Assembly (NCBI RefSeq): GCF_019974135.1
Contig: NZ_AP025017.1
Coordinates: 2,170,001-2,234,000, forward strand
Direction: 5' to 3'
Source: Actinomyces capricornis
Lineage (GTDB): Bacteria > Actinomycetota > Actinomycetes > Actinomycetales > Actinomycetaceae
DNA length: 64,000 nucleotides
A model generated the notes under the pieces. It worked only from the letters and a program-made list of their open reading frames with translations, had not been told where the DNA came from and made no database searches. A program made the translations under genes and the position numbers. Shown one piece after another: positions 41,502 through 64,000 of the stretch (position 1 is its first letter; each line of letters opens with the position of its first letter).

Positions 41502-41801
41502 TCAGGCGATAGCCGTCACGGGGGTGAGGTGGCGCGCGTCGGTGACGCCGTTGGCCGTGGCGTTGTTGTTGTGGTTGGTGGCCACGTCGGAGGCGCCGGC
41601 GGCGAGGGCGTCCTCGAAGGCCACCAGCTTGGGCTTGAACTCGTCCCAGGCCGCACGGAAGGCGGTGGCGTTGGGGCTCTCCCACACCGCCGCGCTCAGG
41701 GAGCTGTCGGTGGTGGTCTGGATGTTGTGGCACAGCTGAACGTTGTTGCTCAGGGTGTCGTAGAGGGCGGCCAGGGTGTCGAGGTCTGCCTGCAAAGACA
41801 T
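41502..41801 (-). CDS. WXG100-like (Esx) small secreted protein
   Basis: 99 residues, all helical, with the size and central turn of EsxA-type type VII secretion substrates. In the turn the motif is Trp40-Glu-Ser (AVWESPNATAF) where WxG is usual. The helices are LQADLDTLAALYDTLSNNV and ATAFRAAWDEFKPKLVAFEDAL. AAGGAG lies 6 bases before the ATG. It diverges from the Tad/EccC operon that ends with a type VII ATPase, so it is the likely substrate. Relaxed WXG motif noted. Confidence 0.72.
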   Translation of the reverse strand: MSLQADLDTLAALYDTLSNNVQLCHNIQTTTDSSLSAAVWESPNATAFRAAWDEFKPKLVAFEDALAAGASDVATNHNNNATANGVTDARHLTPVTAIA

Positions 41802-41924: not shown

Positions 41925-42038
41925 GGAGAAAACTCCCCATGAGATTTTAGCGGTTGTCACGCGCCCAATGACCCCCTCAGGGTCACGATTGCGATACGGT
42001 ACTGCCGCCCCATCGCCCACTGAGAGGTGCCCCTCACC

Positions 42039-42749
42039 ATGGCCCAACCCCAGGATGGACGCGCCATGCGCCGCCATGACCGTGATGCGCGCGGCCTGAG
42101 ATCCACCCAAGCCGCCAAGGCCGACAGCGCCGGCCGGCTGCCCTCCGCGCCCCGCGAGAGGCGGCCACTGCTGGCCGTGCTGGCGGTCCTGCTCATCGTG
42201 GGCGGCGCGGCACTGGCGGGGTTCCTGGCCACCCGGCTGGACCACAGGGTCGAGATGCTCGTGGCCGCCGACACCATCAGGGCGGGCGAGGTCATCGAGC
42301 GCGAGGACCTGGTCTCCACGCCCGTCTCCTCCGGCCTGGGTACCCTCATCCGCACCGATCAGGTCGATCAGGTCGTGGGCAGGACCGCGCGCGTGGAGAT
42401 CGCCAAGGGTCAGCTCCTGGACACTTCCCAGCTCGCGGCCGCGGCGATCCCGGGGGAGGGCAGGCAGGTGGTCGGCGTCTCCCTGGAGGTCGGCCGCTTC
42501 CCCGCCAACGGCTTCAAGGCCGGGGACCTGGTGGATGTCATCGACGTCAATGGGCAGTCGGTCTCCATCAGGGGGGCGCAGGTCCTCGACGCCGTGCCCA
42601 CCTCCGGCACGGACGGGGACTGGAACTCGGGGGCGGTGGTCTCCATCATCGTCAACGAGGCGGATGCGGCCGCCCTCGCCTCAGCGGGTGCCGGTGGCGG
42701 CATCGCCGTGGTCCTGTCCACCTCGGATCAGCCGATCCAGGAGGGCTGA
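42039..42749 (+). CDS. cpaB: SAF-domain (CpaB/RcpC-like) pilus assembly protein
   Basis: 236 residues: basic N-terminus, one membrane helix (about 42-64) and a SAF domain (about 70-135, ADTIRAGEVIEREDLVSTPV), then a beta-rich end. CpaB/RcpC proteins belong to Tad pilus assembly in the envelope. First gene of the operon; its stop overlaps the next ATG (TGATG). In-frame GTG at 42027 is an alternative start. Confidence 0.82.
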   Translation: MAQPQDGRAMRRHDRDARGLRSTQAAKADSAGRLPSAPRERRPLLAVLAVLLIVGGAALAGFLATRLDHRVEMLVAADTIRAGEVIEREDLVSTPVSSGLGTLIRTDQVDQVVGRTARVEIAKGQLLDTSQLAAAAIPGEGRQVVGVSLEVGRFPANGFKAGDLVDVIDVNGQSVSIRGAQVLDAVPTSGTDGDWNSGAVVSIIVNEADAAALASAGAGGGIAVVLSTSDQPIQEG

Positions 42750-43507
42750 TGCTGGTCTCGATCGCCTCGGTCAAGGGGGCTCCCGGCGCCACGACCGCAG
42801 CGCATGTCATCGCCGCGATCTGGCCCCGGCCCGTGCTGCTGGCCGAGCTCGACCCCGCGGGCTCGGACCTGCTGTACCGGGCCCGCACCGAGCAGGGCCA
42901 GCCCCTGGACCCCAACCGCGGCGTGGTCTCCCTGGCCGCCGCGGTGCGCAGGGACCCCGCGGCCCGGGTGGAGGAGCACCTGACGGTCATCAGCGGTGGC
43001 CTCGACGTCCTGCTGGGCCTTGCGCGCCCCGACCAGGCCACCGCGATCGGAGCCGGATGGGCGGGCCTGGCCGCCAGCCTGCGGCGCCACGGGGACGTCA
43101 TCGCCGACGTCGGCCGCATCGCACCGGGGGCACCGAGCCTCGGGGTGGCCCTGGCCTCCGATATCACGGTGCTGGTCACCCGTCCCGGCGTGGAGAACTA
43201 CGGGCACCTGCGGGAGCGCCTGCTGTGGATGCTCAACGACGCCGGTCACCGCGCTGAGCGGCTGCGGCTGGGCGTCATCCTCATCGCTCCGTGGAAGAAC
43301 CGCCACGAGGGCGCGGACCTGGCCCGCCTGCTGCACTCCAGCGGTGTCAGTGCCCCGGTCCTGGGAGTGCTGGCGCACGATACCGGTGCGGCCGATGCCC
43401 TGGCGGGGCGCCGGGCGCTCCCATTGGGGCGCAGCCTGCTGGTCAGGTCGGCGCGCACCCTGCTGCCCGCCCTGGCCGACCTTCCGATGAGTGGAGCGGT
43501 GCGATGA
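42749..43507 (+). CDS. CpaE-like MinD/ParA-fold protein with altered Walker A
   Basis: 252 residues. The N-terminus SIASVKGAPGATTAAHVIAA is the ParA/MinD P-loop position, keeping the signature Lys but with GATT where GKT/S is expected. LLAELDPAGSDL and DVGRIAPG follow as in the family. CpaE proteins place Tad pili. The altered loop suggests weak or no ATP hydrolysis. Overlaps both neighbours. Confidence 0.75.
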   Translation: MLVSIASVKGAPGATTAAHVIAAIWPRPVLLAELDPAGSDLLYRARTEQGQPLDPNRGVVSLAAAVRRDPAARVEEHLTVISGGLDVLLGLARPDQATAIGAGWAGLAASLRRHGDVIADVGRIAPGAPSLGVALASDITVLVTRPGVENYGHLRERLLWMLNDAGHRAERLRLGVILIAPWKNRHEGADLARLLHSSGVSAPVLGVLAHDTGAADALAGRRALPLGRSLLVRSARTLLPALADLPMSGAVR

Positions 43508-44820
43508 GCGTTGACCAGAACCTTGTGCGCCAGATGCGCGAGGAGGTCGCCGATCTCCTGGCCCAGCAGCGGCGCGACGACGCCACCTCGGGCATCCCCC
43601 CGATGAGCCCGGAGGACGAGCGGCAGTTCGCCCGTGCCCTCATCGGCCGCGTCCTGGAGCAGCACGCCCGGGGCGAGATCGCGGCGGGGCGCAGCCCCCT
43701 GAGCGCTCAGGACGAGGAGGAGGTCTCCCAGGGGATCCACGCAGCCCTGTTCGGTGTGGGCCGGCTCCAGCCGCTCCTGGAGGACCCCGACGTCGAGAAC
43801 GTCGATATCAACGGCTACGACAACGTCTTCATCCAGTACGCCGACGGCCGTGAGGAGCGCGGGGCGCCGGTGGCCGACTCCGATGACGAACTGGTCGAGC
43901 TGGTCCAGGTCCTGGGCTCCTACTCGGGACTGGCCTCCCGTCCCTTCGACTCGGCCAACCCCCAGCTCGACCTGCGCCTGCCGGACGGCTCGCGCCTGTC
44001 GGCCGTCATGGATGTGTGCTCCCGTCCGGCGGTCTCGGTGCGCCGGGCCCGCCTGGATCGCGTGGGCCTGGAGGACCTGGTGCGGCTGGGAACCCTGACC
44101 CCGCGCCTGGCGGCCTTCTGCTCCGCCGCGGTGCGCGCCCGCAAGAACATCATGATCGCGGGGGCCACCAACGCGGGCAAGACCACCTTCCTCAGGGCGC
44201 TGGCCAACGAGATCCCGCCCAGTGAGCGGCTCATCACTGTGGAGCGCGCCCTCGAGCTGGGACTGGGGGAGTTCGCCGACCTGCACCCCAATGTGGTGGC
44301 CTTCGAGGAGAGGCTGCCCAACTCCGAGGGGGCGGGGGCCATCTCCATGGCCGACCTGGTGCGCCGCTCCCTGCGCATGAACCCCTCGCGGGTCATCGTC
44401 GGTGAGGTGCTGGGCGATGAGATCGTCACGATGCTCAACGCCATGAGCCAGGGCAATGACGGCTCACTGTCCACCATCCACGCCAACTCCTCCTCCGAGG
44501 TCTTCAACCGCATCGCCACCTACGCGATCCAGTCCGCGGAGCACCTGCCCCAGGACGCCACCAACCTCCTCATCGCGGGCGCGGTGGACTTCGTCATCTT
44601 CCTGACCCGGGAGAACCGCTTCCACCAGGGCGGCAGGATGCGGCGCTACGTCGCCTCGGTCCGCGAGGTCAACGGCGTGGACGGGCGCGTGCTCTCCAGC
44701 GAGATCTTCGCCGACGACCGCAGCGGCATGGCCCAGCCGGCCGCGCCCATCTCCTGCGTGGCCGACCTCATGGCCGCAGGCTATGACCCCGCCGCCTCCT
44801 ACGCCGGGAGGGTGGCATGA
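43504..44820 (+). CDS. tadA: TadA/CpaF secretion ATPase
   Basis: 438 residues. Hexameric type II/IV secretion ATPase that powers pilus assembly. Walker A AGATNAGKTTFLRAL at about 219, Asp box with RLITVERALELGL, Walker B SRVIVGEVLGDE, and His box GNDGSLSTIHANSS. ATG start overlaps the previous stop. The N-terminal about 90 residues are helical. Confidence 0.94.
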   Translation: MSVDQNLVRQMREEVADLLAQQRRDDATSGIPPMSPEDERQFARALIGRVLEQHARGEIAAGRSPLSAQDEEEVSQGIHAALFGVGRLQPLLEDPDVENVDINGYDNVFIQYADGREERGAPVADSDDELVELVQVLGSYSGLASRPFDSANPQLDLRLPDGSRLSAVMDVCSRPAVSVRRARLDRVGLEDLVRLGTLTPRLAAFCSAAVRARKNIMIAGATNAGKTTFLRALANEIPPSERLITVERALELGLGEFADLHPNVVAFEERLPNSEGAGAISMADLVRRSLRMNPSRVIVGEVLGDEIVTMLNAMSQGNDGSLSTIHANSSSEVFNRIATYAIQSAEHLPQDATNLLIAGAVDFVIFLTRENRFHQGGRMRRYVASVREVNGVDGRVLSSEIFADDRSGMAQPAAPISCVADLMAAGYDPAASYAGRVA

Positions 44821-46657: not shown

Positions 46658-46867
46658 ATGCTTCACCTGATCTGCACACTCCAGATCCTCTCGGGCCGCC
46701 TGCGCGATCGCCTCTCGCAGCCGTCCTCCGATGAGAGGGGCGCCTCGACCGTCGAGTGGGTCATCATCACCGGCATCCTCATCGCCCTGGCCGCCGTTGC
46801 GGGGCGGGCGGTGTACGCCATGGTCTCGGAGGCCTCCAGCAACCTGCAAGTGCCGACCGTTCCCTGA
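46658..46867 (+). CDS. Flp-like prepilin
   Basis: 69 residues. DERG|ASTVEWVIITGILIALAAV shows a class IV prepilin cleavage site (after Gly) with Glu at +5 and a hydrophobic helix. Probably the major pilin, following tadC as in other Tad loci. AAGGGAAGGA precedes the ATG at 46658. Confidence 0.8.
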   Translation: MLHLICTLQILSGRLRDRLSQPSSDERGASTVEWVIITGILIALAAVAGRAVYAMVSEASSNLQVPTVP

Positions 46868-47735: not shown

Positions 47736-48199
47736 GCATGCGGCGCCGGCGCCAGTCACCGTGGCTGAGAATGCCCTCCTTCACGCAGGAGCGCGGCTCG
47801 GTCTCCGTCTTCGCGATCATCATCGCGGCCGTCCTCATCCTGGTGGCGGGCCTGTGCATCGAGGGCGGGAGGGTGCTGACCGCTCGCGCCTCCATGACCG
47901 ACGACGCCGAGCAGGCCGCCCGCGCGGGGGCCCAGCACCTGGCCGACAGCAGTGTCCGCTCAGGAGGCGACATCGTCCTGGACACCTCCGAGGCCCAGGC
48001 TGCCGCCCGCGGCTACCTGGTCCAGACCGACCATGCCAATGACTCCGAGGTGGTGGTCACCCCCAAGACGGTGACCGTCACCATCGAGCACAACGTGCCC
48101 ACCTCCATGCTGCGCCTGGTGGGCCTCGATTCAGTTCATGTCACGGCGACCGGCCAAGCCCGGGTCGCTGTGGGAATCTACGGGGAGGAAGACCTGTGA
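47732..48199 (+). CDS. TadG-like pilus-associated protein
   Basis: 155 residues. ERG|SVSVFAIIIAAVLILVAGLC has the Gly site and helix but Phe at +5 where the three previous proteins have Glu, as in Rv3660c-neighbourhood/TadG-like proteins. Start ATG 47732 after GGAGG; overlaps both neighbours. Confidence 0.78.
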   Translation: MSMRRRRQSPWLRMPSFTQERGSVSVFAIIIAAVLILVAGLCIEGGRVLTARASMTDDAEQAARAGAQHLADSSVRSGGDIVLDTSEAQAAARGYLVQTDHANDSEVVVTPKTVTVTIEHNVPTSMLRLVGLDSVHVTATGQARVAVGIYGEEDL

Positions 48200-50871
48200 G
48201 TGCCGAATCCGCTCTTGTGAGAGGCCCTGAGCGCTTCCGGGCGCCTGCGGGCCAGGACAGGCCCTCGCCCCTGCGCTCCATCCTGGCCGCGGGTGTGCTG
48301 CTCCTGATCATCGTGGGCCTCCCCCTCCTCCTGCTCCAGACAGTGGGCCTGCCCCCGGTGCCCCGGGAGTTCCACGCCTCCATGCTGCTCCAGGCGGTGT
48401 CCCTGGAGGTGCTGCTCGGAGTGCTCTACTGGGTGCTGTGGCTGGCATGGCTGCAGTTCACCGTGTGCACCGTGGTGGAGATCGTCTCGGCGGTGCGCGG
48501 GCAGGGGATGCCGGTGCATGTGCCCCTGTCCGGAGGCATCCAGGGCCTGGTGCGCAGGCTCGTCATCTCCATGCTGCTGGCCAGTGCCCTGAGTGCGCCC
48601 GCCGCGGCGGCCGTGCCCGCACTGCCCTCCCACGCCGCGGCCCAGGCGGCCGCCTCCGCCCAGGAGATGGGGGCGGCGGGCGCCGCAGGCCAGGGCACCA
48701 CCGGGGTGCAGCCGGCCGCAGGCGGGATCGCGGGGCAGGACGCCTCCGGCCACGAGGCCGGGCAGAGCAGCGAGCATGTGCGCTACATGCTGGGGGATAT
48801 CGAGCTGGACCCGGAGACCGGCCAGCAGCTGGTGGGCCAGCGGGTGTACGTCGTCCAGCCCCCTGACGGGCGCTACCACGACAACCTGTGGGACATCGCC
48901 GAGCGCAACCTGGGCGAGGGGCGGGGCTACCAGGAGATCTACGACCTCAACGCGGGGCGTCTCCAGCCCGATGGCCGCTCCCTGGAGCTGGCCCGGCTCA
49001 TCCAGCCCGGATGGCTGCTGGTCATGCCCGATTCCGCGGAGTCCGTGGAGCGCGTGGTGGCGGTGCCCGTGGAGAACCCGGCGCCCCCGCCCCAGATGCT
49101 GGACCGCTCCGCCGCCGTCCAGGAGGCGGAGAACCGGGTCAGTGCCGTCCAGGACGTCGCCCCGGCCCAGATGCCCGCTGTCGGCTCCCTGCTGGCGGCC
49201 TCGCTCGTGGCACTGCTGGCGCGCCGGCGCCGTCAGTGGGTGGGCGCCGCGCCGGGGGAGGAGGCCGGCGAGCTCGAGAGGCTGCTGCGCGTGGGGGCCG
49301 ACGAGGCCCGCTCCCTGCGTCTGGACGCGGTGCTGCGCTCCTTGAGCGCCATGGAGGAGCCGCCCCGGCCCTACGCCGTGGCCATCAACGACACCGCCTG
49401 CTACATGCGCCTGAGCCAGCCCCGGATGGAGGCCCCGGCGCCCTGGCAGGTGCAGGACGGGGGCCTGACCTGGGCGATCCCCGCGGGCCAGGAGCCCGCG
49501 GTCCCGGCCGGGGTCCCACCGCTGCTGCCCGGCCTGGTGACGATCGGACGGGATGCCAGCGGTGCCGACATCCTCATCGACCTGGCCGCGGCCGATGGGG
49601 AGGTCGGCGTCGTGGGAGACCCCATGATGGCCGCCGAGATGGTGGGGGCGCTGGCCCTGGAGCTGTGCACCAACCCGTGGTCGGAGGGCGCGGAGGTGGC
49701 GGGCTCCGGACTGCCCCCGGTGCTGCACGAGATGCTGGGCGGGCGCCTGCAGTCCCCCCATGAGCTGGTGCACTCGGCCGGTGCTCGGGAGACCGACGGC
49801 ATCCTCACCGGCCGGCATGAGGCGCCCACGACCTTCATGCTCGTCGCCGGGGGCGATGTCCTTCCGCCGCTGCCCCCGGGCCGCAGCCTCGCCCTGGTGC
49901 GCACCGGCAGTGACCGCGGCGCGCGATGGAGGATCGAGATCGACGCCTCCGGCACCGCCCGCATCGACCCGCTGGGCATCACGGTGACGGCCACGCGCGC
50001 CACGGAGCACGAGCTGGCCGGCCTCGCCGAGCTCCTGGCGGCCCCGGCCCCGGTGGATGGCGGCCGCCCGCCTGTGCCGGACCCGCCCCAGCCCCCGGTG
50101 ATGACGGCGGTCATGCGCACGGCACCGGTGCGCATCCATATCCTCGGCGAGACCCTGGTGGAGGCCGGGGGCGCCGTGGACCGCGCCCGCCGCAGCATCC
50201 TGACCGAGGCCGCGATCTGCGTGGCCCTCCACCCCCAGGGCATCCGCCCCGAGGTGCTCGGTGCGATGATCTGGCCCCTGGGGGTCACGGGCGACGTCAT
50301 CGAGGCCACTGTGGAGCGGCTGCGCACCTGGCTGGGCACTGATGCCGACGGAGCCCCCCACCTGCGCCAGGATGCCGAGGGCCGCCTGCACATGGGCCCG
50401 GGAGTGGTCATGGACTGGGATGTGCTGCGCTCCCTGCTGGAGGCCTCCCGGAAGGACCCCCGGCGCGAGGCCGAGCTGCTCATCGAGGCGCTGCGCCTGG
50501 TGCGCGGCCCCATCGGGCAGGGCATGCCCAAGGGCCACTACGGCTGGGTGGCCCGCGTGCGCACTGCGCGCCAGTACGACGCCCTGGTGGTGGATGCCGC
50601 GCATCGCCTGGTCGAGCTGCTCGGGGACACCGATCCCGGTGGCGCGGCCGGTGCGGTCGATATCGGCCTGAAGGTGGTGGACCTCAACCAGGAGTTGTGG
50701 CGGGACCGCCTGCGCCTGGCCGCCAGGCGGGGGAGCTCCGAGCTGGAGCGGGACATCCACGTGCTCATGGAGGCCTCCGGGGTCGATGACCTCACTGCCC
50801 TGGATCCGGCGACGGCGGCTCTGATCGAGGACCTGGCGCCCGGCATGTCGGTGCGGCGCATCGGCGCCTGA
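48196..50871 (+). CDS. LysM- and BTAD-domain membrane protein of the Tad locus
   Basis: 891 residues. Three membrane segments (about 28-52, 65-90, 120-140) and an Ala/Gly-rich outer linker lead to a LysM-like region (about 218-282, YVVQPPDGRYHDNLWDIAERNLG ... WLLVMP). Another helix follows at about 334-349, then a cytoplasmic part ending in a BTAD/SARP-like helical domain (about 640-885). Such LysM-BTAD proteins close many actinobacterial Tad operons; role unknown, maybe linking wall and pilus state. GTG overlaps the previous stop. Confidence 0.83.
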   Translation: MSAESALVRGPERFRAPAGQDRPSPLRSILAAGVLLLIIVGLPLLLLQTVGLPPVPREFHASMLLQAVSLEVLLGVLYWVLWLAWLQFTVCTVVEIVSAVRGQGMPVHVPLSGGIQGLVRRLVISMLLASALSAPAAAAVPALPSHAAAQAAASAQEMGAAGAAGQGTTGVQPAAGGIAGQDASGHEAGQSSEHVRYMLGDIELDPETGQQLVGQRVYVVQPPDGRYHDNLWDIAERNLGEGRGYQEIYDLNAGRLQPDGRSLELARLIQPGWLLVMPDSAESVERVVAVPVENPAPPPQMLDRSAAVQEAENRVSAVQDVAPAQMPAVGSLLAASLVALLARRRRQWVGAAPGEEAGELERLLRVGADEARSLRLDAVLRSLSAMEEPPRPYAVAINDTACYMRLSQPRMEAPAPWQVQDGGLTWAIPAGQEPAVPAGVPPLLPGLVTIGRDASGADILIDLAAADGEVGVVGDPMMAAEMVGALALELCTNPWSEGAEVAGSGLPPVLHEMLGGRLQSPHELVHSAGARETDGILTGRHEAPTTFMLVAGGDVLPPLPPGRSLALVRTGSDRGARWRIEIDASGTARIDPLGITVTATRATEHELAGLAELLAAPAPVDGGRPPVPDPPQPPVMTAVMRTAPVRIHILGETLVEAGGAVDRARRSILTEAAICVALHPQGIRPEVLGAMIWPLGVTGDVIEATVERLRTWLGTDADGAPHLRQDAEGRLHMGPGVVMDWDVLRSLLEASRKDPRREAELLIEALRLVRGPIGQGMPKGHYGWVARVRTARQYDALVVDAAHRLVELLGDTDPGGAAGAVDIGLKVVDLNQELWRDRLRLAARRGSSELERDIHVLMEASGVDDLTALDPATAALIEDLAPGMSVRRIGA

Positions 50872-50881
50872 GGGGACGGCA

Positions 50882-53800
50882 GTGCAGTTCTTCATCACGG
50901 CCCTGCGGCCCGAGGATCCCGATCCCTCGCCCCAGGACCTCATCGTCGTCGCCCAGCCCGACTCCACCGTGGCGGACCTGGCCAGCGTCCTGGACCGGTA
51001 CACCCCGAGGACCCCCTCCGCCCAGCCCCTGCGACTGGTGGTGGCGGGCGGCGAGGCCCGTGAGGAGCCGGCGCCGACCCTGTGGTCGGGCTCGACCCGC
51101 CTCGATCCCCAGGCGGTCCTGGGCGGCGGGCCGATCCACGACGGCATGGTTCTGGGGCTGGGCGCGCCCCGCCCCGACGACGTGGAGCCCGGCGGCGTCG
51201 TCGAGCTGCGGGTGATCTCGGGCTGGGGCGCGGGCGCGGTCCACCGGCTGGGCCTGGGGCGCTACACCCTGGGCGGACCGGGCTGCGACATCCCGCTGGA
51301 GGGCCTGGAGGAGCAGGTGGCCGACCTGGCGGTCCAGGCGGGCGGCCGGGTGGTCCTCACCGCGCCGGAGGAGGTCGCCGAGCGCCCCCTGCCTCCGGCG
51401 CCCCCTCGGGTCAGGCCCCTGCCAGGGCCGCTGGTGCTGCCCGCCGACCGGCAGGAGGAGCCCCAGGACAAGCCGCGACGTCGCCGGCGCCGGCGCAAGC
51501 GCAACCAGGAGGAGCAGGAGGCCGATGGCCCGGTGCTGCAGGGGCGCGAGTCCCTGGATCCCGAGGGGCCCAGGAGCTACCTGGAGCTTGACCGGCGCCC
51601 CCTGGAGGGCCCCACGCCCTGGGAGGAGGGCGCGGTGCTCACCGTGGGCGAGGTCCAGCTCACCGTGGGCGAGGTCCCGCGGATCAATGCGGTGATGACC
51701 CCGACCCCCGGGGCCACCACGATCGATTTCAACCGGCCTCCGCGCCTGGCCCGTCCGCTGCGGCGCACCGAGTTCGCCCTGCCGCGTGAGCCCCAGAACC
51801 CGCGCAAGCCGCCCTTTCCCTTCGCCCTCATGCTCTCGCCCCTGGTGATGGGGCTGGGCATGTTCCTCCTCACCCGCCGTGTCTACTCCCTGATGTTCAT
51901 GATCCTCTCCCCGATCATGATGATCGCCAACCAGGTCCAGGGCCGCTCCAACTCCAGGAGGAACTACGAGGACCAGCTGGCGCGCTACGAGCAGGAGCGG
52001 GAGATCGCCGAGGACGCCGCCTTCCGGGCGCTGACCGAGGAGAGGCGCCTGCGCCGCCTGGACTCGCCCGACCCCGCGGAGATCCTCCTGCGGACCACGG
52101 GGCCCCGGGCCGACCTGTGGGAGCGCCGCCCCTCGGATCCCGACTGGCTGGAGCTGCGGGTGGGGACGGCGGACCTGGCCAGTGACGTCATCCTGCAGGA
52201 TCCGCAGCGGCCCCGCCATGAGGAGCGCCTGCGCTGGACGGCCCCGGATGTGCCGGTGACCGTGCCGCTGGCGACGCTGGGCGTGGTCGGCGTCTCGGGG
52301 GCGAACCGTGACCGCGTGGCGCCCTGGCTGGCCGCGCAGGCCGCGGCCCTGCACTCGCCGGCCGAGCTGGAGATGGTGCTCATCATGGATCCCGGCCAGG
52401 GGCGGCAGGCGCATGAGCGGTGGCATTGGGCTCGCTGGCTGCCGCACCTGCGCAACGCCGAGGGCATGGGGGCCCGCGCGAAGGTGGGCGTGGATGATGA
52501 GTCGGTGATGCGGCGCATCAACGAGCTCGCCGATCTGGTGGAGTCCCGTTCCAACCAGGACGGCGGCGGCCGGGGCGCCCCGGCGATGGGCCAGGTCCTG
52601 GTCATCCTCGATGGTGCGCATGCGCTGCGCCAGCGCCCCGGGATGATCCGGGTGCTGCGCGACGGCCCGGGGGTGGGGGTGCGCCTCATCTGCGTGGATG
52701 CCGATCGCACCTCGCTGCCCGAGGAGTGCCGGGCGGTGGTGTCCACCGGTCCCGATATCCCCTCGGTCTCGCAGACCGATCTTGATGAGATCGAGCAGGT
52801 GCTGCTGGACTTGGTGCCCGCGGGCTGGTGCGAGCGGGTGGCCCGGGCACTGGCGCCCGTCCACGATGTCTCGGCCGAGGGGGCGGAGGGGGCCATCCCC
52901 ACCAGCTCCCGGCTCCTGGATGTGCTGTCCATGCCCGAGCCCGATGCCCAGCTGGTGCTCCGGGCCTGGGAGCGCTCCAGCCGCACCACGCGCGCTGTGG
53001 TGGGGGAGGACGCCGAGGGGCTGTTCTGGCTGGATGTGCGGGCCGATGGCCCCCACGCCCTGGTGGCGGGGACGACGGGGTCGGGTAAGTCCGAGCTGCT
53101 CCAGACCCTCATCGCCTCCCTGTGCGTGGGCAATACGCCGGAGTCGATGACCTTCGTCCTGGTGGACTACAAGGGCGGTGCGGCCTTCAAGGACTGCGCG
53201 CGCCTGCCGCACACGGTGGGCATGGTCACCGACCTCGATGGGCACCTGACCTCCCGGGCGCTGGAGTCCCTGGGGGCGGAGCTGCGGCGCCGCGAGCACC
53301 AGCTGGCCGGTGCGGATGCCAAGGACATCGAGGACTATGTGGCGGCGATGCAACCGGGGGATGAGCCCATGCCCCGGCTGATGATCATCATCGACGAGTT
53401 CGCCGCCATGGTCTCCGAGCTGCCGGACTTCGTCACCGGCCTGGTGGACATCGCCCGCCGGGGGCGTTCCCTGGGGGTGCACCTGGTGCTGGCCACCCAG
53501 AGGCCTGCGGGCGTGGTGACCGCGGAGATCAAGTCGAACACGAACCTGCGCATCGCCCTGCGGGTGACCGACGAGGCGGACTCCCAGGATGTCATCGAGC
53601 ACTCGGCCTCGGCGCATATCCCGCCGTCGATCCCGGGGCGTGCCAACGCGCGCCTGGGGCATGCCAGTCTGCGCCAGTTCCAGTCCTCCCGCGTGGGGGG
53701 ACGCCCGCGTGGGGCGACGCCGCGCGCGGAGCTGCGGGCCGCGGACCTGAGCCTCATGGAGCTCTCCCGCCCGGAGGCGGCCCCGCCCCAGGTGGAGGAG

Positions 53801-55600
53801 GATGCGACGATCCCCACGGATCTGGCCACCCTGGTCAACGCCATGGGGCAGGCCCATGCCTCGACGGGACGGCCGCGGCCGCACAGCCCTTGGCTGCCGC
53901 CGCTGCCCGAGGTGGTGACGCTCACCGAGCTGGAGCATTGGACCCCGGTCCAGGAGGCGGGGACGCCGGTGCCGCATGAGGATGACGACGTTGAGGCGGC
54001 GGAGGTGGCGGCCCCGGCCCGGCCGGGCGGCGTCGAGGGGGCTGGGGAGGCGGACAGTGATGCGGCTGTGCGCGAGGCGGGTTTCCTGCCGCCGCTGCTG
54101 CTGGGCCTGGAGGACCTGCCTCGTGACCAGGACCAGCGGCCCATGGTGTGGGACTACTGCCGGGAGGGGCACCTGGGGATCGCGGGGGCGCCGCGCTCGG
54201 GGCGCTCCAGTGTGCTGCGTGGGATTGCGGTGGCGGTGGCTCGTACGGCCTCGGCCGAGGAGGTGCATCTGTATGGGATCGATGCGGGGACGGGGGCGCT
54301 GCTTCCGTGCATGTCGTTGCCGCATTGCGGGGCGGTGGTGACGCGCGATCAGCCTGAGCGGGTGCGGCGCCTGCTGGATGTGCTGGGTCGGGAGGCGGCC
54401 AGGCGCCAGCAGCTGCTGGCCGCCCAGGGGTATGCGGCGCTGTCCGAGCAGCGTGCGGCGGCGCCGTCGGAGGAGCGGATCCCCTACTTGGTGCTGCTCA
54501 TCGACCGGTGGGACTCCTTCACGGCGACGTTTGAGTCTGTTGATGGTGGGGCGCTGCTGGAGCGGGTGGAGACGCTTATGCGCGAGGGGCCTGCGGTGGG
54601 CGTGCGCGTGGTGGTGGCCGGTGACCGCACGCTGTTCCGGGGGCGTTTTGGGATGATGCTGGAGGATCGTCTGGTGCTGCGGCTTCCTGCCGCCGAGGAC
54701 TACGAGGTGGTGGGGATGCGTCCGCGCGATGTGCCGTTGACGATGCCCGATGGGCGGGCCTTCCGCAGTGGGGTGCGTCCTCGCGAGGTTCAGCTCGCGC
54801 TGCTGACGGCGCAGACCGCGGGAACCGCGCAGGTGGCGGCGATTCATGCGGCTGGCCGTGAGAGCGTGGAGCGCTGGGGCGAGACCCCGCGCAGCAGGCG
54901 CCCGGGGAGGGTCGATGAGCTGCCGGTGATGATCTCGACGGCGGATGCGCTGGAGCTGGGGCCGGAGTTGGCGCCGGGGTCCTTTGCCCTGGCGGTGGGC
55001 GGGGACAACCTGGGGTTGCTCCCGCTGTCGATGGAGGAGGCGGGCAACGGGGTCCTGGTGGCGGGGCCGCGCCGTTCGGGGCGCTCGACCGCCCTGTACT
55101 TCGGGGCGTACACGGCCGTGGAGGGCGGGGTGCATGCGGTGCTCGTTCTGCCGCGCCGCTCCCCGTTGGCCGGCCTGGCCTCGCACCCGGGGGTGCTGGG
55201 GGTGCTGGATTCGACGGCGAAGCCTGAGGATCTCAAGGGCCTGCTGTCCAGGCACGGCCCGGAGACGCTCATCGTGATCGATGACTATGACATCCTGGGC
55301 AATGACCACGTGCTGTGCGCGACGATGGAGGAGCATTTCAAGGGGGCGCGGGATAGCGCCGGCGGCATTCTCGTGGCCAGCGGTGTGGAGGAGGCCCAGG
55401 GAATGTATGGGGGTCTCATGGCGAGGCTCCGTCGAACTCGTACGGGGATCGTCATGGCGCCGCGCAGCGCCGACGATGGTCAGGTTCTCTCCGCTCGCCT
55501 TCCTCGCTCCGTTGGTGGAGCAGTGCCCGCCGGCCGGGGGATTTCCATCTCACCCGCGGGGTGGGTGTGGAGCCAGGTGCCCCGGATGGATGTCAGCTGA
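50882..55600 (+). CDS. EccC/EssC-type FtsK/SpoIIIE ATPase of type VII secretion
   Basis: 1,572 residues. N-terminal FHA-like region (about 1-160) and Arg-rich linker, as in EssC. Two membrane helices (about 312-355) are followed by a non-ATPase domain and three ATPase modules. Module 1 is complete: Walker A AGTTGSGKSELLQ (about 730), VLVDYKGGAAF and Walker B LMIIIDEFAAM (about 834). Modules 2 (GAPRSGRSS, about 1101) and 3 (GPRRSGRST, about 1394) have Arg for the Walker Lys. GTG start 10 bp after the LysM/BTAD gene puts it in the Tad operon. Third-base preference changes towards G/T from about 54 kb. No EccB/D or EssA/B in the window. Confidence 0.88.
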   Translation: MQFFITALRPEDPDPSPQDLIVVAQPDSTVADLASVLDRYTPRTPSAQPLRLVVAGGEAREEPAPTLWSGSTRLDPQAVLGGGPIHDGMVLGLGAPRPDDVEPGGVVELRVISGWGAGAVHRLGLGRYTLGGPGCDIPLEGLEEQVADLAVQAGGRVVLTAPEEVAERPLPPAPPRVRPLPGPLVLPADRQEEPQDKPRRRRRRRKRNQEEQEADGPVLQGRESLDPEGPRSYLELDRRPLEGPTPWEEGAVLTVGEVQLTVGEVPRINAVMTPTPGATTIDFNRPPRLARPLRRTEFALPREPQNPRKPPFPFALMLSPLVMGLGMFLLTRRVYSLMFMILSPIMMIANQVQGRSNSRRNYEDQLARYEQEREIAEDAAFRALTEERRLRRLDSPDPAEILLRTTGPRADLWERRPSDPDWLELRVGTADLASDVILQDPQRPRHEERLRWTAPDVPVTVPLATLGVVGVSGANRDRVAPWLAAQAAALHSPAELEMVLIMDPGQGRQAHERWHWARWLPHLRNAEGMGARAKVGVDDESVMRRINELADLVESRSNQDGGGRGAPAMGQVLVILDGAHALRQRPGMIRVLRDGPGVGVRLICVDADRTSLPEECRAVVSTGPDIPSVSQTDLDEIEQVLLDLVPAGWCERVARALAPVHDVSAEGAEGAIPTSSRLLDVLSMPEPDAQLVLRAWERSSRTTRAVVGEDAEGLFWLDVRADGPHALVAGTTGSGKSELLQTLIASLCVGNTPESMTFVLVDYKGGAAFKDCARLPHTVGMVTDLDGHLTSRALESLGAELRRREHQLAGADAKDIEDYVAAMQPGDEPMPRLMIIIDEFAAMVSELPDFVTGLVDIARRGRSLGVHLVLATQRPAGVVTAEIKSNTNLRIALRVTDEADSQDVIEHSASAHIPPSIPGRANARLGHASLRQFQSSRVGGRPRGATPRAELRAADLSLMELSRPEAAPPQVEEDATIPTDLATLVNAMGQAHASTGRPRPHSPWLPPLPEVVTLTELEHWTPVQEAGTPVPHEDDDVEAAEVAAPARPGGVEGAGEADSDAAVREAGFLPPLLLGLEDLPRDQDQRPMVWDYCREGHLGIAGAPRSGRSSVLRGIAVAVARTASAEEVHLYGIDAGTGALLPCMSLPHCGAVVTRDQPERVRRLLDVLGREAARRQQLLAAQGYAALSEQRAAAPSEERIPYLVLLIDRWDSFTATFESVDGGALLERVETLMREGPAVGVRVVVAGDRTLFRGRFGMMLEDRLVLRLPAAEDYEVVGMRPRDVPLTMPDGRAFRSGVRPREVQLALLTAQTAGTAQVAAIHAAGRESVERWGETPRSRRPGRVDELPVMISTADALELGPELAPGSFALAVGGDNLGLLPLSMEEAGNGVLVAGPRRSGRSTALYFGAYTAVEGGVHAVLVLPRRSPLAGLASHPGVLGVLDSTAKPEDLKGLLSRHGPETLIVIDDYDILGNDHVLCATMEEHFKGARDSAGGILVASGVEEAQGMYGGLMARLRRTRTGIVMAPRSADDGQVLSARLPRSVGGAVPAGRGISISPAGWVWSQVPRMDVS

Positions 55601-55910: not shown

Positions 55911-55946
55911 TTACATTTGCTCTCCAATATTGTTGAGGTTCAAATT

Positions 55947-58152: not shown

Positions 58153-58201
58153 TAAGAAAAGTCCCATGAATGACGCCAATAGTTTTATGAAGGAGGTGCA
58201 T

Positions 58202-59061: not shown

Positions 59062-60123
59062 TCAGGGGGCCGAAGGCTTACCAGTGCTGTTAAGCACCTG
59101 GGCCTCGGCCACAGGAATACCCACCGTGCTCGTCGTCGTCACCGCGTCAAGAGCGCCACCAGCGCCATCCGACGCAGTAAATTCCGTCCGGTACGACACG
59201 GAGATCTTTACTGGCGTGGTCCCTCCAAGATGAGCACTGGAACGAGTGAAGGTCACCGAGCAGTCCGTCGCACCAGCATCCTGCGCCCATGGCCGTCCAA
59301 AACCCTCGCAGTCCTCCACCAGATCAGGTCCCGACAGGCTCAGCCCACTCGACCGGGCCGTGACCGTCGCCGTTACCGGGCCAGCGGTCGCCGTCGCAAT
59401 CACCTCCGCCGGGGTCTCAGTGGCCCACACCCACGTCTGGAAGCCCACCAGTGTGCCACCGGAGCTGCCAAGCCTGGGATTGTAATCCACGTGAGGGTCC
59501 GGAATCGACACCGCATCCCACGCCGCCTCCGCCAGCGTCCTGCCGTCGATCAGGGGCGCCGGCGGCGTCCCGCCCGCGGGAACGAACACAGGGCCATTAT
59601 TGGCGAAGAACTCCGAGGATATCCTCCGGTACTCCTCCGAAGACATATCACTGCTACTGCTCCAGCGGCACTCTGGGGAGTACCAGCGGCCCTCCGTGTC
59701 ATCCTTGTGCTGATCCAGGTCGGGGTAGTCGCTCTTCCAGTCCTCCGCGCTCTCGCCAGTCATGGCCGCGGTGGCGGCAGTGCCCTGGGAATTGAGCCAC
59801 TCGTACTTTTCCTTCCCGGTGGACCCCGGCGAGTAGCTGCACACGGGCTCCACCGTGGCCGCTGCTGTCGTCGAGGACTCGGAGGTTATGGCTCCGCCAC
59901 CGCCGCCCGATCCACCTTCGGAATACGTGTATACCACGGAGACCGTGATCTGCTGGCTCCCGCCCGAACCGCCCGCCGAGCCCGCAGCAGTGCCAGCGGC
60001 TGAGGACTGCCCCCCGTCGCCGTGGGCCAGCCCGCCCGGGAGCAGGGCCAGCACTGCGCAGAGCGCCGGGATGAGCGAGCGGCCCGGACGCGGCGGATAT
60101 GATCTGGTGGTGCTGCTCCTCAT
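59062..60123 (-). CDS. secreted Ser/Gly-rich protein, family A copy 1
   Basis: 353 residues. Signal peptide (about 1-35, LIPALCAVLALLPGGLAHG), Ser/Gly/Thr-rich linker, then a domain with four conserved cysteines. The C-terminal block has GTLVGFQTWVWAT, SSGLSLSGPD, CEGFGRPW and CSVTFTRSSAHLGGTTP, ending IPVAEAQVLN. Paralogous to the genes at 60955 and 63840. ATG overlaps the stop of the lipoprotein gene upstream (ATGA). Function unknown. Confidence 0.75.
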   Translation of the reverse strand: MRSSTTRSYPPRPGRSLIPALCAVLALLPGGLAHGDGGQSSAAGTAAGSAGGSGGSQQITVSVVYTYSEGGSGGGGGAITSESSTTAAATVEPVCSYSPGSTGKEKYEWLNSQGTAATAAMTGESAEDWKSDYPDLDQHKDDTEGRWYSPECRWSSSSDMSSEEYRRISSEFFANNGPVFVPAGGTPPAPLIDGRTLAEAAWDAVSIPDPHVDYNPRLGSSGGTLVGFQTWVWATETPAEVIATATAGPVTATVTARSSGLSLSGPDLVEDCEGFGRPWAQDAGATDCSVTFTRSSAHLGGTTPVKISVSYRTEFTASDGAGGALDAVTTTSTVGIPVAEAQVLNSTGKPSAP

Positions 60124-60821
60124 GCGGTGCACTCGTTCTGCGACTCGAAGATACTGCCGATCATCTTCCACTTCCCATCAGAATTATCCAGGATATAGCG
60201 GTGCTGGTAGCGCCCTTGTTGGGAAGGGTCGGTGGTCTCCTGACCGGCGCCGTTGAAACTGCGCACATCCCGACGATCCGTGCAAGCCACCACCTCAGCG
60301 CGCGCGGGCGCGTAGGCATCCTGCACGTCGACGTAGAGGAAGGCCACATGCACCGGGCCGGAGAGTCGCTCACCGGGCTCCAGCGCCGCATAATTGCCCT
60401 GGAAGAACGCTAGTTCATCGCCCTTGGCCAACTCCTCCGCCCCCTGAGTACCCGCACCGGTACCCGCCGGGGTGAACCACACGTTCCAAGTGAACTGGTC
60501 ATAGGCGACAAAGGCCTTGAGGGCATCCTGCTGCTTCCCGTTGAGGTCCTCTGGGATGGACGTCACTTCATAGCCGATCTCCTCATTGGACAGGGACTGC
60601 GTGGTCACCTCCTGCGTCGAGGCGCTCGCCGAGGCGCTAGCCGCAGCATGCTCCTGCTCGCCGGCGGTATCCGGGGCGGAGGCCTGCGGTGAGAAGGCCG
60701 GGACCGTGGGCTGCGAGGTGGATGACCCGCCATCGGCGGAGCAGGCAACCGCACCTCCCGCCGCGATCAGCAGCGCACAGCCAGCCGCAATAGAGCGACG
60801 AACGGTACCAGAAGCAGTCAT
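60120..60821 (-). CDS. lipoprotein, family B copy 1
   Basis: 233 residues. Lipobox AVAC (Cys about 27), Ala/Ser/Thr linker to about 75, then a small domain with EIGYEVTSIPEDLNGKQQDA, YDQFTWNVWF, VACTDRRDV and a final NEC. The same plan is seen in the two B proteins to the right. GGAGG precedes ATG 60821. Coupled to the A1 gene. Confidence 0.75.
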   Translation of the reverse strand: MTASGTVRRSIAAGCALLIAAGGAVACSADGGSSTSQPTVPAFSPQASAPDTAGEQEHAAASASASASTQEVTTQSLSNEEIGYEVTSIPEDLNGKQQDALKAFVAYDQFTWNVWFTPAGTGAGTQGAEELAKGDELAFFQGNYAALEPGERLSGPVHVAFLYVDVQDAYAPARAEVVACTDRRDVRSFNGAGQETTDPSQQGRYQHRYILDNSDGKWKMIGSIFESQNECTA

Positions 60822-60954
60822 GATGATCCCTCCACATCGACAGATCAATGTTGTGATCGTACATGACAGTCCGGCCAAGAGCCAGGTGTCGTCCTACCCA
60901 TGGCCCCTCAGGCGCAGGTGCGATCAAGGAGGGAGAGAGGGAGGACGTCAGTCG

Positions 60955-62037
60955 TCAGTTGTCACTCCCGTTGAGGGTCTGCGCCTCAGCCACGGGGATG
61001 TCGAACTGCGAGTTCGTTGTCACCGAGTTCAGGCTGCCACTGGTGCCGTCCGAAGCTGACCACGTGACCCCGTAGGTCACCTGGACTTTCAGCGGTGTTG
61101 TGCCGCCCAGGTGAGCGCTGGAGCGAGTGAAGGAGACCATGCAATCGCTTGTGGCGCCATCAGGCTCGTTCGGCGTCCACTCCCGGCCAAATCCGGTGCA
61201 GGACACCTCGCTATCGGGTGCGGACAGGTTCAGGCCCGAGGACGAGGCCGTCACCTCCGCTGAGGAGTCCCCGGCAGTTGCCGTAGCCGTGATAGAGGTC
61301 GGCGTGTCACCTGTGGCCCACACCCAGGTGTTATAGCCCACCAGCGTTGCGCCGTTCTGGCCCAGCTTGGGGTTCGTCTCGACTGTGGGGGCGGGGATGG
61401 TGATCGCCTTCATCGCAGCGCGGGCCAGGACGCTTCCAGGAATAGGGGGAGTCGGGGGCTTGGAACCTGCGGGCACCCATAGCCTTAACTCTGTGTTGGC
61501 CGTATAGAAAGCACGAAACGCGGCCCGGAACTCCTCATCATTAGCCGCCCTGGAGCGATCGCAGTAGCGGATATGCCACATGCCGCCCTCATTGGCTCTC
61601 GCCTCTGAATTCGGGTAGAGTCGGTCGGCCGCCTCCTTGGCCTTCGCGTCGTCCTTCTTCTTCTCGTAGATGGAATTCACCCACGCCCGCGCCTCTGTTC
61701 CGCTGATATACGGCTTGTGGTAGCAGATTGGCAGTACCGTGGCCTCCACCTGCTGTGACGTGGTTCCCGATCCGTCGGCTCCAGGTGCCCCTCCAGAGCC
61801 ACCAGAGGCCGTGGTCGACTCCACTGACACGGTGATCGTCACGGATCCATCTCCCGACTCCTGGGCACTACTACCCGTGTTGTTGGTCATAGCAGCAGCC
61901 TGGGAGGCTGTAGTCAGTGCTACCAGGCTCACGATCGGAAGAAGCACGCCGATCAGGGCGGCCTTCCCGACGGAATGGCGGCGCAATACTGTCAACAACT
62001 GCCGAGCCCCTCTTGCCTGGCGATTGCGACGATCCAC
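60955..62037 (-). CDS. secreted Ser/Gly-rich protein, family A copy 2
   Basis: 360 residues. Basic N-terminus, signal helix (about 26-48, ALIGVLLPIVSLVALTTASQ), linker and four-cysteine domain. C-terminal block TLVGYNTWVWATGDTPTSI, SSGLNLSAPD, CTGFGREW, CMVSFTRSSAHLGGTTP, IPVAEAQTLN. GTG start after AAAGGAGGG, 46 bases inside the end of the B2 gene, so the two are translationally linked. Confidence 0.77.
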   Translation of the reverse strand: MDRRNRQARGARQLLTVLRRHSVGKAALIGVLLPIVSLVALTTASQAAAMTNNTGSSAQESGDGSVTITVSVESTTASGGSGGAPGADGSGTTSQQVEATVLPICYHKPYISGTEARAWVNSIYEKKKDDAKAKEAADRLYPNSEARANEGGMWHIRYCDRSRAANDEEFRAAFRAFYTANTELRLWVPAGSKPPTPPIPGSVLARAAMKAITIPAPTVETNPKLGQNGATLVGYNTWVWATGDTPTSITATATAGDSSAEVTASSSGLNLSAPDSEVSCTGFGREWTPNEPDGATSDCMVSFTRSSAHLGGTTPLKVQVTYGVTWSASDGTSGSLNSVTTNSQFDIPVAEAQTLNGSDN

Positions 62038-62696
62038 CTGTCGCCCTCCTTTGTCATCTCTATCGTCTCAGCATAACGACCATGATCGTTGGGGTTGCTC
62101 ACGTCTTCGCCGTCCGCAGATACCTTCCGTGTCTGAGTTTTGTCGGAGCATGTCCCGACGATCGCGGTGCTCGTCTCGGCACTGACTTCAACATGGGTGA
62201 TGTCGACGATGTAGGTGCCCTCATAGTGCTCCCCGGCGGCCTTCAAATGGTTGTAGGTATTGGTGTAGGATTCCAGGGCCTGGCCGGTGAGGACTATCTG
62301 TGCCTCATCCATTCCGTTCATGGTGCGAACAGTTCCCCATGTGACATGGTCGTAATAGGCGAAGTCGCGGGCGACGGCGATCTGCTCTGGGGTCAGATCT
62401 GATGGGAGGGAGGTGATGGTGTAGCTGATGTCGGGCCGGGAGAGCTCCTCGGTGGTGATCGAGGTGCTCGAGCTCGTCGCCGTGGCGTCGGCCCCGGAGG
62501 GGGTGTCGGTAGTGGAGCCCTCGGAGGAGGCTGAGGGTGGGGCCCCTGAGGCCTGTGCTGTGGTCTGGGGCGTGTACTGGGCCAGGGTTGTCGGGTCCGA
62601 GGCCTGCTGCCCGCCTGAGGAGCAGGCCCCCACCGCGGCCAGGGCCAGGAATGCGGCCAGCACCCCTCCTGCTGCCCGGTTGCGTGCACTTCCCAC
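61992..62696 (-). CDS. lipoprotein, family B copy 2
   Basis: 234 residues. Start GTG 62696, set by GGAGGG 6 bases upstream. Lipobox AVGAC (Cys about 25), linker, then ISYTITSLPSDLTPEQIAVA ... MNGMDEAQIVLTGQALES ... IVGTCSD and a final GSC. Residues 1 to about 90 are identical to copy 3; the C-terminal domain differs. Its 3' end overlaps the A2 start. Confidence 0.8.
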   Translation of the reverse strand: MGSARNRAAGGVLAAFLALAAVGACSSGGQQASDPTTLAQYTPQTTAQASGAPPSASSEGSTTDTPSGADATATSSSTSITTEELSRPDISYTITSLPSDLTPEQIAVARDFAYYDHVTWGTVRTMNGMDEAQIVLTGQALESYTNTYNHLKAAGEHYEGTYIVDITHVEVSAETSTAIVGTCSDKTQTRKVSADGEDVSNPNDHGRYAETIEMTKEGDRWIVAIARQEGLGSC

Positions 62697-62831
62697 GATG
62701 AGCCCTCCCATCACGTGACCTTACCGTTACCATCGCGCAATCTACCCACAGCAGCTCCCATGATCCAGCAGGCACCACGACCGCCCCCGGGGAGCCCTGC
62801 CCATGACCGCGCACCGACGACCCGCATCCCC
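62426..62831. repeat. direct repeat copy 1 (938-bp offset)
   Basis: 62426-62750 matches 63364-63688 without a difference that I can see, and similarity continues with few changes to about 62831/63769. It covers promoter, ribosome site, signal peptide and linker of family B genes 2 and 3. Confidence 0.9.
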
Positions 62832-62929
62832 GCCAACAGGCCAACGACACTCCCTGTAGGGTGACTTACCTCATAGTTCCTAGCCTTGGGTGGGTTCGGA
62901 TACCTCGGCGGTCTCATGGCATGCGGCCA

Positions 62930-63634
62930 TCAGCAACTTCCGTGCTCCTCATTCCTGTCAGCCGTGACGATCCACCTGTCGCCCTCTTTCGCCATGTCAC
63001 TCACCGTCACCCCGCGACCCCATCCGTTAGATTCAGAGACATCCTGGCCGTCTGTGGAGATTACTTGGACCGCTGTTCTGTCGGAGCATGTTCCGACGAC
63101 TGCCGTTCCGGTTTCGGGACTGATCTCCACGTAGGTGACATCGACGGTGTAGGAGCCCTCGAGGTGCTGTCCTGAGTTTTCCAGTCTGTTGTAAGTGCTG
63201 GTGAAGGTCTCCAGGGCCTGGCCGGTGAGGACTGTCTGTGCCTCATCCATTCCGTTCATGGTGCGGAAAATTTCCCATGTGACCTGGTCGTAGTAGGCGT
63301 AGTCGCGCAGGACGCTGATCTGCTCGGGCGTGAGGTCGGTCGGTAGGGATGTGATGGTGTAGTTGATGTCGGGCCGGGAGAGCTCCTCGGTGGTGATCGA
63401 GGTGCTCGAGCTCGTCGCCGTGGCGTCGGCCCCGGAGGGGGTGTCGGTAGTGGAGCCCTCGGAGGAGGCTGAGGGTGGGGCCCCTGAGGCCTGTGCTGTG
63501 GTCTGGGGCGTGTACTGGGCCAGGGTTGTCGGGTCCGAGGCCTGCTGCCCGCCTGAGGAGCAGGCCCCCACCGCGGCCAGGGCCAGGAATGCGGCCAGCA
63601 CCCCTCCTGCTGCCCGGTTGCGTGCACTTCCCAC
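62930..63634 (-). CDS. lipoprotein, family B copy 3
   Basis: 234 residues. Same start arrangement (GTG 63634, GGAGGG) and the same signal peptide and linker as copy 2. The domain then diverges: INYTITSLPTDLTPEQISVL, TFTSTYNRLENSGQHLEGSY, VVGTCSDRTA, final GSC. A -10 like TAAGGT at 63656-63661 (minus strand) is also duplicated before copy 2. Confidence 0.8.
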   Translation of the reverse strand: MGSARNRAAGGVLAAFLALAAVGACSSGGQQASDPTTLAQYTPQTTAQASGAPPSASSEGSTTDTPSGADATATSSSTSITTEELSRPDINYTITSLPTDLTPEQISVLRDYAYYDQVTWEIFRTMNGMDEAQTVLTGQALETFTSTYNRLENSGQHLEGSYTVDVTYVEISPETGTAVVGTCSDRTAVQVISTDGQDVSESNGWGRGVTVSDMAKEGDRWIVTADRNEEHGSC

Positions 63635-63769
63635 GATGAGCCCTCCCATCACGTGACCTTACCGTTACCATCGCGCAATCTACCCACAACAGCCCTCGCG
63701 ATCCAGCAGGCACCACGACCGCCCCCGGGGAGCCCTGCCCATGACCGCACACCGACGACCCGCATCCCC
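63364..63769. repeat. direct repeat copy 2 (938-bp offset)
   Basis: Partner of 62426-62831. Sharp loss of identity begins inside the coding sequence at the linker/domain border (first difference at 63363 against 62425). Confidence 0.9.
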
Positions 63770-63839
63770 GCCAACAGGCCGAGGACAACTCGTCGGTGCC
63801 CCTGCGGGTGACCCGCCTGAAAGCCCTGGCCTTGGGTGA

Positions 63840-64000
63840 TCAGTGATCCCCACTCGCGTTGAGGGTCTGGGCCTCGGCGACCGGGATCGGCGTTGTCGAG
63901 GAGGTGGTGATATGGCCCAGGCTTCCGCTTGCGCCAGTATTGGAGTCCCATGAGGCCGCGTAGGTCGCAGACACGGTCAAGGGGGTCGTGCCGCCATGAA
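63840..64000 (-). CDS. secreted protein, family A copy 3 (start beyond window)
   Basis: Only the last 53 codons are present, reading HGGTTPLTVSATYAASW and ending TPIPVAEAQTLNASGDH. They align directly with the ends of A1 and A2 (HLGGTTPLKV ... IPVAEAQTLN). It is the third A copy, upstream of B3 in the same direction. Confidence 0.85.
   Translation of the reverse strand, partial: HGGTTPLTVSATYAASWDSNTGASGSLGHITTSSTTPIPVAEAQTLNASGDH

Follow-up and report, generated by a model that had tools for sequence, protein, structure and literature searches.

A gene array for two families of exported proteins

At the end of the 64,000-nucleotide stretch of the Actinomyces capricornis chromosome analysed here (the window; contig positions 2170001-2234000 of a complete 3.17-Mb genome) lies an array of genes for two families of putatively exported proteins, A and B. 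The named proteins nearest to those of the window are from Actinomyces bowdenii. An original prediction, made from the window sequence alone, had described six open reading frames (ORFs) of these families as an alternating array, and all six are found on the minus strand where it placed them. Reading on beyond position 64,000, in the chromosome piece that continues the window (L003, G000:C1:2224001-2244000; window coordinate = L003 + 54000), completed A3 and added a fourth B gene:

59062..60123, minus strand: A1, predicted secreted protein, 353 residues from ATG or 369 from GTG 60171, with an N-terminal hydrophobic stretch and an immunoglobulin (Ig)/PKD-like C-terminal domain
60120..60821, minus strand: B1, predicted lipoprotein, 233 residues, AVAC lipobox, NTF2-like domain; its stop overlaps the A1 start
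60955..62037, minus strand: A2, predicted secreted protein, 360 residues, GTG start at 62037
61992..62714, minus strand: B2, predicted lipoprotein, 240 residues, VGAC lipobox, modelled as NTF2-like
62930..63652, minus strand: B3, tandem copy of B2 with no A of its own
63840..64000 within the window, minus strand: A3, whole gene 63840-64874 on the window scale (L003 9840-10874), 344 residues, TTG start
64868-65569 on the window scale (L003 10868-11569), beyond the window, minus strand: B4, precedes A3

Along the minus strand the genes run, from 5' to 3', B4-A3, B3, B2-A2, B1-A1, that is, three B-A pairs and one extra B. The predicted array exists and extends past the window, but it does not strictly alternate. 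Every A start in it overlaps a B stop: by 7 nucleotides for B4/A3, by 46 for B2/A2 (A2 GTG at 62037, B2 stop ending at 61992), and for B1/A1 by 4 if A1 starts at ATG 60123 (ATGA at 60120-60123) or by 52 if it starts at GTG 60171. The 46-base and ATGA overlaps had already been recognised in the original prediction, and the two cistrons of a pair may be translationally coupled. B2 and B3 are 90-100% identical from about 100 nucleotides upstream to about codon 100 and diverged afterwards, a pattern that points to gene conversion or partial duplication. A tandem extra B recurs in Actinomyces bovis (L014), as a B-B-A run with an opposing B-A pair. Elsewhere in the A. capricornis genome, the C-terminal part of an A gene persists as a remnant at G000:C1:75604-75846 (L007, L121), 1.7 kb from a DUF6571 gene.

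Each A protein of the array has one N-terminal hydrophobic stretch, with no later stretch equally hydrophobic, and LPXTG is absent from A1, A2 and A3. A variable N-terminal half is followed by the conserved Ig/PKD-like domain, which ends in V-x-E-x-Q; over 44 pairs of A proteins, mean identity is 34% in the N-terminal half and 57% in the C-terminal one. The four cysteines singled out in the original prediction are invariant in the three array proteins; across 48 aligned members of the wider family, C280 and C299 are invariant and C159 is kept in at least 90%. The HLGGTTP motif it proposed is exact in A1 and A2, but A3 reads LHGGTTP. The structure model of A2 has a mean predicted local distance difference test score of 82.4. 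Neither the complete A nor the complete B proteins of the window reach a Pfam or NCBIfam cut-off, and no known unrelated function was found for either family. PKD (PF00801) gives no match for A1 or A2 and, among the 48 aligned A proteins, matches only one (P0103), at 22.5 bits against a cut-off of 23.5. P0103 connects the window A proteins with Streptomyces families; PKD is precomputed for 10 of its 105 matches, and the A profile finds a Streptomyces A at E 1.9e-28. Streptomyces proteins annotated as 'ATP/GTP-binding' or 'PKD domain-containing' are thus homologous to A, with a diverged N-terminal half, whereas A1 and A2 reach no PKD score. Streptomyces plasmid homologues (L152 and others) are labelled 'ATP-binding' or 'ATP/GTP-binding protein'; a scan of A relatives found no such domain.

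That B is a lipoprotein with two conserved cysteines, as first proposed, is borne out by the alignment: the lipobox cysteine and C189 occur in 28 of 28 rows, and C240 in at least 90%. The fold predicted for B2 is NTF2-like, with the ARC6 intermembrane adaptor as the closest structure. Scores for the ARC6-like intermembrane-space domain (PF13355) stay below the cut-off of 22.8 (B2, 15.1 bits; B1, 13.2 bits; B3, none). The ARC6/PARC6 domain belongs to the NTF2-like superfamily; B, in contrast, is a predicted bacterial lipoprotein with its own conserved cysteine pair, and the likeness is one of predicted fold, not of function.

Pairing of A and B across the class

A profile built from 48 A proteins has matches in 75 of 246 genomes sampled across the class, representing 27 of 104 genera. 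Among 49 Actinomyces genomes, 26 carry A, with 1 to 16 matches each, fragments included, and the B-A pair is also present in Streptomyces, Cutibacterium and Micrococcus. The loci fetched contain 139 A matches, of which 81 are unique and full-length by profile; the remainder, including many remote A proteins matched only C-terminally, were left uncounted. The upstream gene was scored by one rule, which asks for an ORF that has a lipobox, carries a cysteine among its last eight residues and stops close to the start of the gene tested, such ORFs being preferred in both the A and the control sets. By this rule, a B-like ORF directly precedes A in 72 of the 81 cases, compared with 72 of 745 control genes. 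Among the nine misses, B is present by profile and only the lipobox pattern failed in three (L012, L015, L104); a contig end cuts the locus and leaves a B stub in L011; the B-like gene comes after A instead in L037, L038 and L044; and L086 is the second A of a B-A-A run. For L068 we have no explanation. Four of the nine also follow a B-like ORF.

The B genes of distant genera belong to the same family. A profile of Actinomyces B finds 27 of 28 remote B proteins at E <= 1e-3 (set of 28, themselves chosen by the lipobox and cysteine rule), the remaining one being a spurious ORF, and profile alignment of remote with Actinomyces B gives a probability of 98.6% over 132 columns. Distances within A and within B correlate (Mantel r 0.73-0.78), a correlation that linked inheritance alone would yield. 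The window array follows the general pattern, in which the gene for an NTF2-like lipoprotein immediately precedes, on the same strand, that for an Ig/PKD-like secreted protein and overlaps or abuts it, with B3 as an extra. Since the same pair is conserved across the class, the array is not due to chance. The original interpretation is partly supported. The 72 of 81 pairings, the recurrence across genera and the export signals predicted on both proteins give good support to an association of A with B outside the cell, of which the complex suggested there is a candidate form.

Tad/Flp loci in the window and elsewhere

Twenty remote pieces of 16-20 kb each, chosen for diverse families, were inspected for neighbouring genes. 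Tad genes occur in 11 of them and an EccC-like gene in 2 more. On six named plasmids, all with B and A confirmed by profiles, the pair heads, ends or lies inside a Tad/Flp pilus operon. On two Streptomyces plasmids B comes first in the annotated order and A ('ATP-binding' or 'hypothetical') second; SAF/FlgA, a CpaE-like hypothetical, CpaF and two T2SS-F proteins follow, and then a short Flp-size ORF, TadE, TadE/TadG, a hypothetical and LysM. Plasmids of Cutibacterium modestum and C. acnes carry the same operon with B-A at its end (their gene tables are incomplete, with SAF unlisted for p11-79), and in Micrococcus luteus pCW.Ay the pair lies between the pilin genes and a BTAD gene. A tblastn search with one Streptomyces A found relatives on 220 of 72,556 plasmid records; on the records examined the pair carries the annotation 'hypothetical', 'ATP-binding' or 'ATP/GTP-binding'. 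Of ten additional remote stretches with Tad loci, one (L151) has an EccC-like gene, divergent from SAF.

The C. acnes homologue of A is probably a protein already detected by mass spectrometry. On p11-79, TadE4 is followed by LysM, B and A. On p09-9, TadE1-TadE4 are APS60_12595-12610, and APS60_12625, a 30.7-kDa 'hypothetical protein, signal peptide', is reported for strains 11-79 and 09-9 both among secreted proteins and among those sheared from the surface, like the 12.9-kDa TadE2 (PMC5696575). The p11-79 A and TadE2 proteins have masses of 30.55 and 12.88 kDa. The gene numbering in steps of five, together with the gene order, therefore suggests that APS60_12625 is the A homologue.

In the window, the array lies 3.5 kb past a single locus (41.5-55.6 kb) in which a gene of WXG100 type is divergent from Tad genes and a gene for an EccC-type ATPase of a putative type VII secretion system (T7SS):

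41502..41801, minus strand: small protein of WXG100 type with a VWESP motif, encoded divergently from the Tad operon; family assigned via an L014 relative (17.3 bits, Pfam cut-off 27.3)
42027..42749, plus strand: SAF/CpaB-like, Pfam SAF 37.2 bits, similar to SAF proteins of named Tad plasmids
42749..43507, plus strand: CpaE/TadZ-like by position and weak similarity; no Pfam match
43291..44820, plus strand: CpaF/TadA ATPase, Pfam T2SSE 103 bits; the actual start probably lies downstream of the longest-ORF start
44817-45698, plus strand: TadB, Pfam T2SSF (30.6 and 31.8 bits for TadB and TadC)
45695-46618, plus strand: TadC, Pfam T2SSF
46658..46867, plus strand: Flp-type pilin, 69 residues, Flp1_like 20.7 bits (cut-off 33.5)
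46756-47271, plus strand: TadE minor pilin, Pfam TadE/Tad
47268-47735, plus strand: TadF minor pilin, Pfam TadE/Tad
47717-48199, plus strand: TadG minor pilin, Pfam TadE/Tad
48196..50871, plus strand: LysM-type protein, 27-30% identical to annotated LysM/BTAD proteins of named Tad plasmids
50882..55600, plus strand: FtsK ATPase of EccC/EssC type, putative T7SS component; FtsK_SpoIIIE 178.5 bits, which exceeds the cut-off

T2SSE and both T2SSF matches exceed their cut-offs, and TadE/TadG minor pilins and a CpaB-like SAF are present, as in a Tad core. The LysM-type protein, SAF, CpaE, CpaF, TadB and TadC each match their plasmid counterparts in the subset of pairs compared, and the STVEW motif of the Flp-type ORF is common to the eight relatives compared. 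Pfam detected neither LysM nor BTAD in the LysM-type protein and no FHA domains in EccC, whose best NCBIfam match is the T7SS-specific TIGR03928 (512 bits, below the cut-off of 778). Directly after EccC, 55590-55910 (plus strand) is a remnant of a T7SS-type protein, 38% identical over 101 residues to the end of a 454-residue relative in L122. Two related lipoprotein genes, 55917-56693 and 58136-58939 (plus strand), flank a DDE transposase (57124-58146); their relatives elsewhere adjoin EccC and T7SS-type proteins of about 678 residues. On the far side of the array, divergent from B4, are what we take, from their sequences, to be genes for a basic-membrane-type lipoprotein and an ABC transporter.

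The LysM-type gene, used as a marker of this locus, is found in 21 of 49 Actinomyces genomes, and EccC adjoins it in 20 of the 21, this genome included (split into pieces in L131 and L141; the exception is L140). Intact A and the marker occur together in 20 genomes, A only in 2, the marker only in 1 and neither in 26 (Fisher p 1.6e-10, uncorrected for kinship); with fragments counted, the numbers are 20, 6, 1 and 22 (p 2e-7). In nine single-contig Actinomyces genomes, 19 of 37 A genes lie within 30 kb of the marker, compared with a mean of 0.7 by rotation. The DUF6571 genes that also accompany A encode large proteins; their small partners resemble WXG proteins on visual inspection and match no Pfam family. 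In L119 (G254:C10:65001-85000), and also in G279 and G268, several partial DUF6571 copies (about model positions 340-560) are found close to a complete gene, an arrangement like that of polymorphic cassette arrays.

The available parts of two papers on actinobacterial Tad/Flp loci, on a C. acnes plasmid (PMC5696575) and in chromosomal clusters of M. luteus (PMC4322843), describe CpaF, TadB, TadC and TadE-G in common with the window, as well as Flp, for which the window has a candidate, and do not name B and A as parts of the system. The Tad plasmids further share SAF, CpaE-like and LysM/BTAD proteins similar to those of the window, with B-A at the operon end or inside; to the C. acnes and M. 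luteus loci the window adds the EccC-type gene, the WXG100-type gene, and three pairs plus one B. Its combination of an EccC/EssC-type ATPase and a WXG100-type gene beside a Tad gene set resembles T7SSg and T7SSh, as far as the accessible text describes them (Garrett et al. 2024, PMC11217815). Those systems are described in Bacillota, whereas only T7SSa and T7SSd are named there for Actinomycetota; the likeness is one of gene content, not of an ATPase tree. The word 'Actinomyces' is absent from the main text of that paper.

Candidate roles of the pair

The explanation to which we lean, with modest confidence, is that B-A is a two-gene envelope module of actinobacterial Tad/Flp loci, with A held on the outside of the membrane by B as an accessory of the Tad-type machine. 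B would be translated, exported and lipid-anchored on the outer face of the membrane, presenting its NTF2-like domain as an adaptor. A would be made next from the overlapping cistron, exported by Sec and captured by B. On the outer face B would then be the tether and A the exposed element, a subunit of the surface or the pilus that serves the Flp machine. Duplication and conversion would later diversify the pairs; in Actinomyces they have multiplied beside the EccC/WXG100-type locus and beside DUF6571 genes. The original prediction was right to associate A with B, but it missed the setting: Tad/Flp loci, accompanied in Actinomyces by an EccC-containing T7SS-like locus in the same window.

Several observations weigh against such a module. 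Tad and EccC genes are both missing from seven of the 20 remote pieces. Among the Actinomyces genomes, two carry intact A but no marker, and a single one carries the marker but no A. The number of A matches ranges from 0 to 16 per Actinomyces genome, fragments included, which is more in keeping with a variable accessory than with a core part, and most A genes in the nine single-contig genomes have a DUF6571 gene closer by than the Tad locus. A is seldom found without B, but B-like genes without a neighbouring A exist, B3 here and others on the locus maps (for example L087, L107 and L114; not counted genome-wide). The A fold has no Foldseek match at E <= 1e-3. The identification of APS60_12625 with A is based on gene order and a mass difference of 0.15 kDa, not on sequence comparison.

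The main competitor, which we consider possible though rather unlikely, makes the pairs accessories of T7SS substrates that dock, protect against or help release a nearby DUF6571-type substrate, the Tad linkage being inherited. It would account for the 29 of 37 A genes in the nine single-contig genomes that have a DUF6571 gene at no more than 10 kb (rotation gives a mean of 1.5) and for the joint occurrence of A and DUF6571 (both in 24 of 49 genomes, A only in 2, DUF6571 only in 3, neither in 20), their match numbers correlating with rho 0.85 over the 49 genomes and 0.53 over the 24 with both. Against it, a gene of the DUF6571 cluster occurs in 0 of 20 remote pieces (by blastp clustering, not profile search), none is named on the six plasmid stretches, and at DUF6571 loci other lipoprotein families could just as well fill an immunity or accessory role. 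In this genome, a distance of more than 440 kb separates each of the nine DUF6571 matches from the array, which is atypical in this respect. A free-standing extracellular adhesin or ligand-binding pair, residing in variable islands near Tad and T7SS genes without a functional tie, seems to us unlikely. The variable match number with its many fragments, the faster divergence of the N-terminal half of A, the 7 remote pieces lacking both machines and the lower G+C content at third codon positions (0.73-0.77 in the array genes versus 0.87-0.93 in the Tad-EccC genes) are in its favour; the same operon position in several genera and the co-occurrence within Actinomyces are hard to explain by hitch-hiking. 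It is very improbable that the array consists mostly of decaying duplicates with one functional pair at most. The A remnant at C1:75604, truncated A genes in relatives and an adjacent broken substrate-type gene and transposase fit decay, but all seven array genes are open and retain the lipobox, conserved cysteines and overlaps.

In a speculative and, to us, improbable extension, the Flp/Tad machine and EccC of Actinomyces could form one hybrid secretion apparatus, with B-A pairs as exchangeable extracellular docking units, each for particular substrates, and the array as their repertoire. Each B would recognise the conserved C-terminal tail of its A, in the way that domains of ARC6 type bind the tail of a partner.

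Tad/Flp loci and T7SS are known kinds of system; the pair as an accessory and the Actinomyces Tad-EccC arrangement are candidate new parts. Neither was found among the matches listed from the open-licence literature, where no title concerns a T7SS of Actinomyces and 'DUF6571' is not mentioned; because only open-licence papers were searched, this absence is weak evidence. To our knowledge, Gram-positive Tad/Flp machines lack the outer-membrane parts that organise the Gram-negative ones, and what replaces them outside the membrane is unclear. A lipoprotein and secreted-protein pair recurring at Tad loci across the class is a concrete candidate for what stands there. For T7SSg and T7SSh, whose gene neighbours include Tad genes, the available text leaves open whether this proximity has a functional meaning or is a coincidence (Garrett et al. 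2024, PMC11217815). The contiguous Tad-LysM-type-EccC locus of Actinomyces poses this question within a single genus, with 20 species genomes in which removing genes could give the answer.

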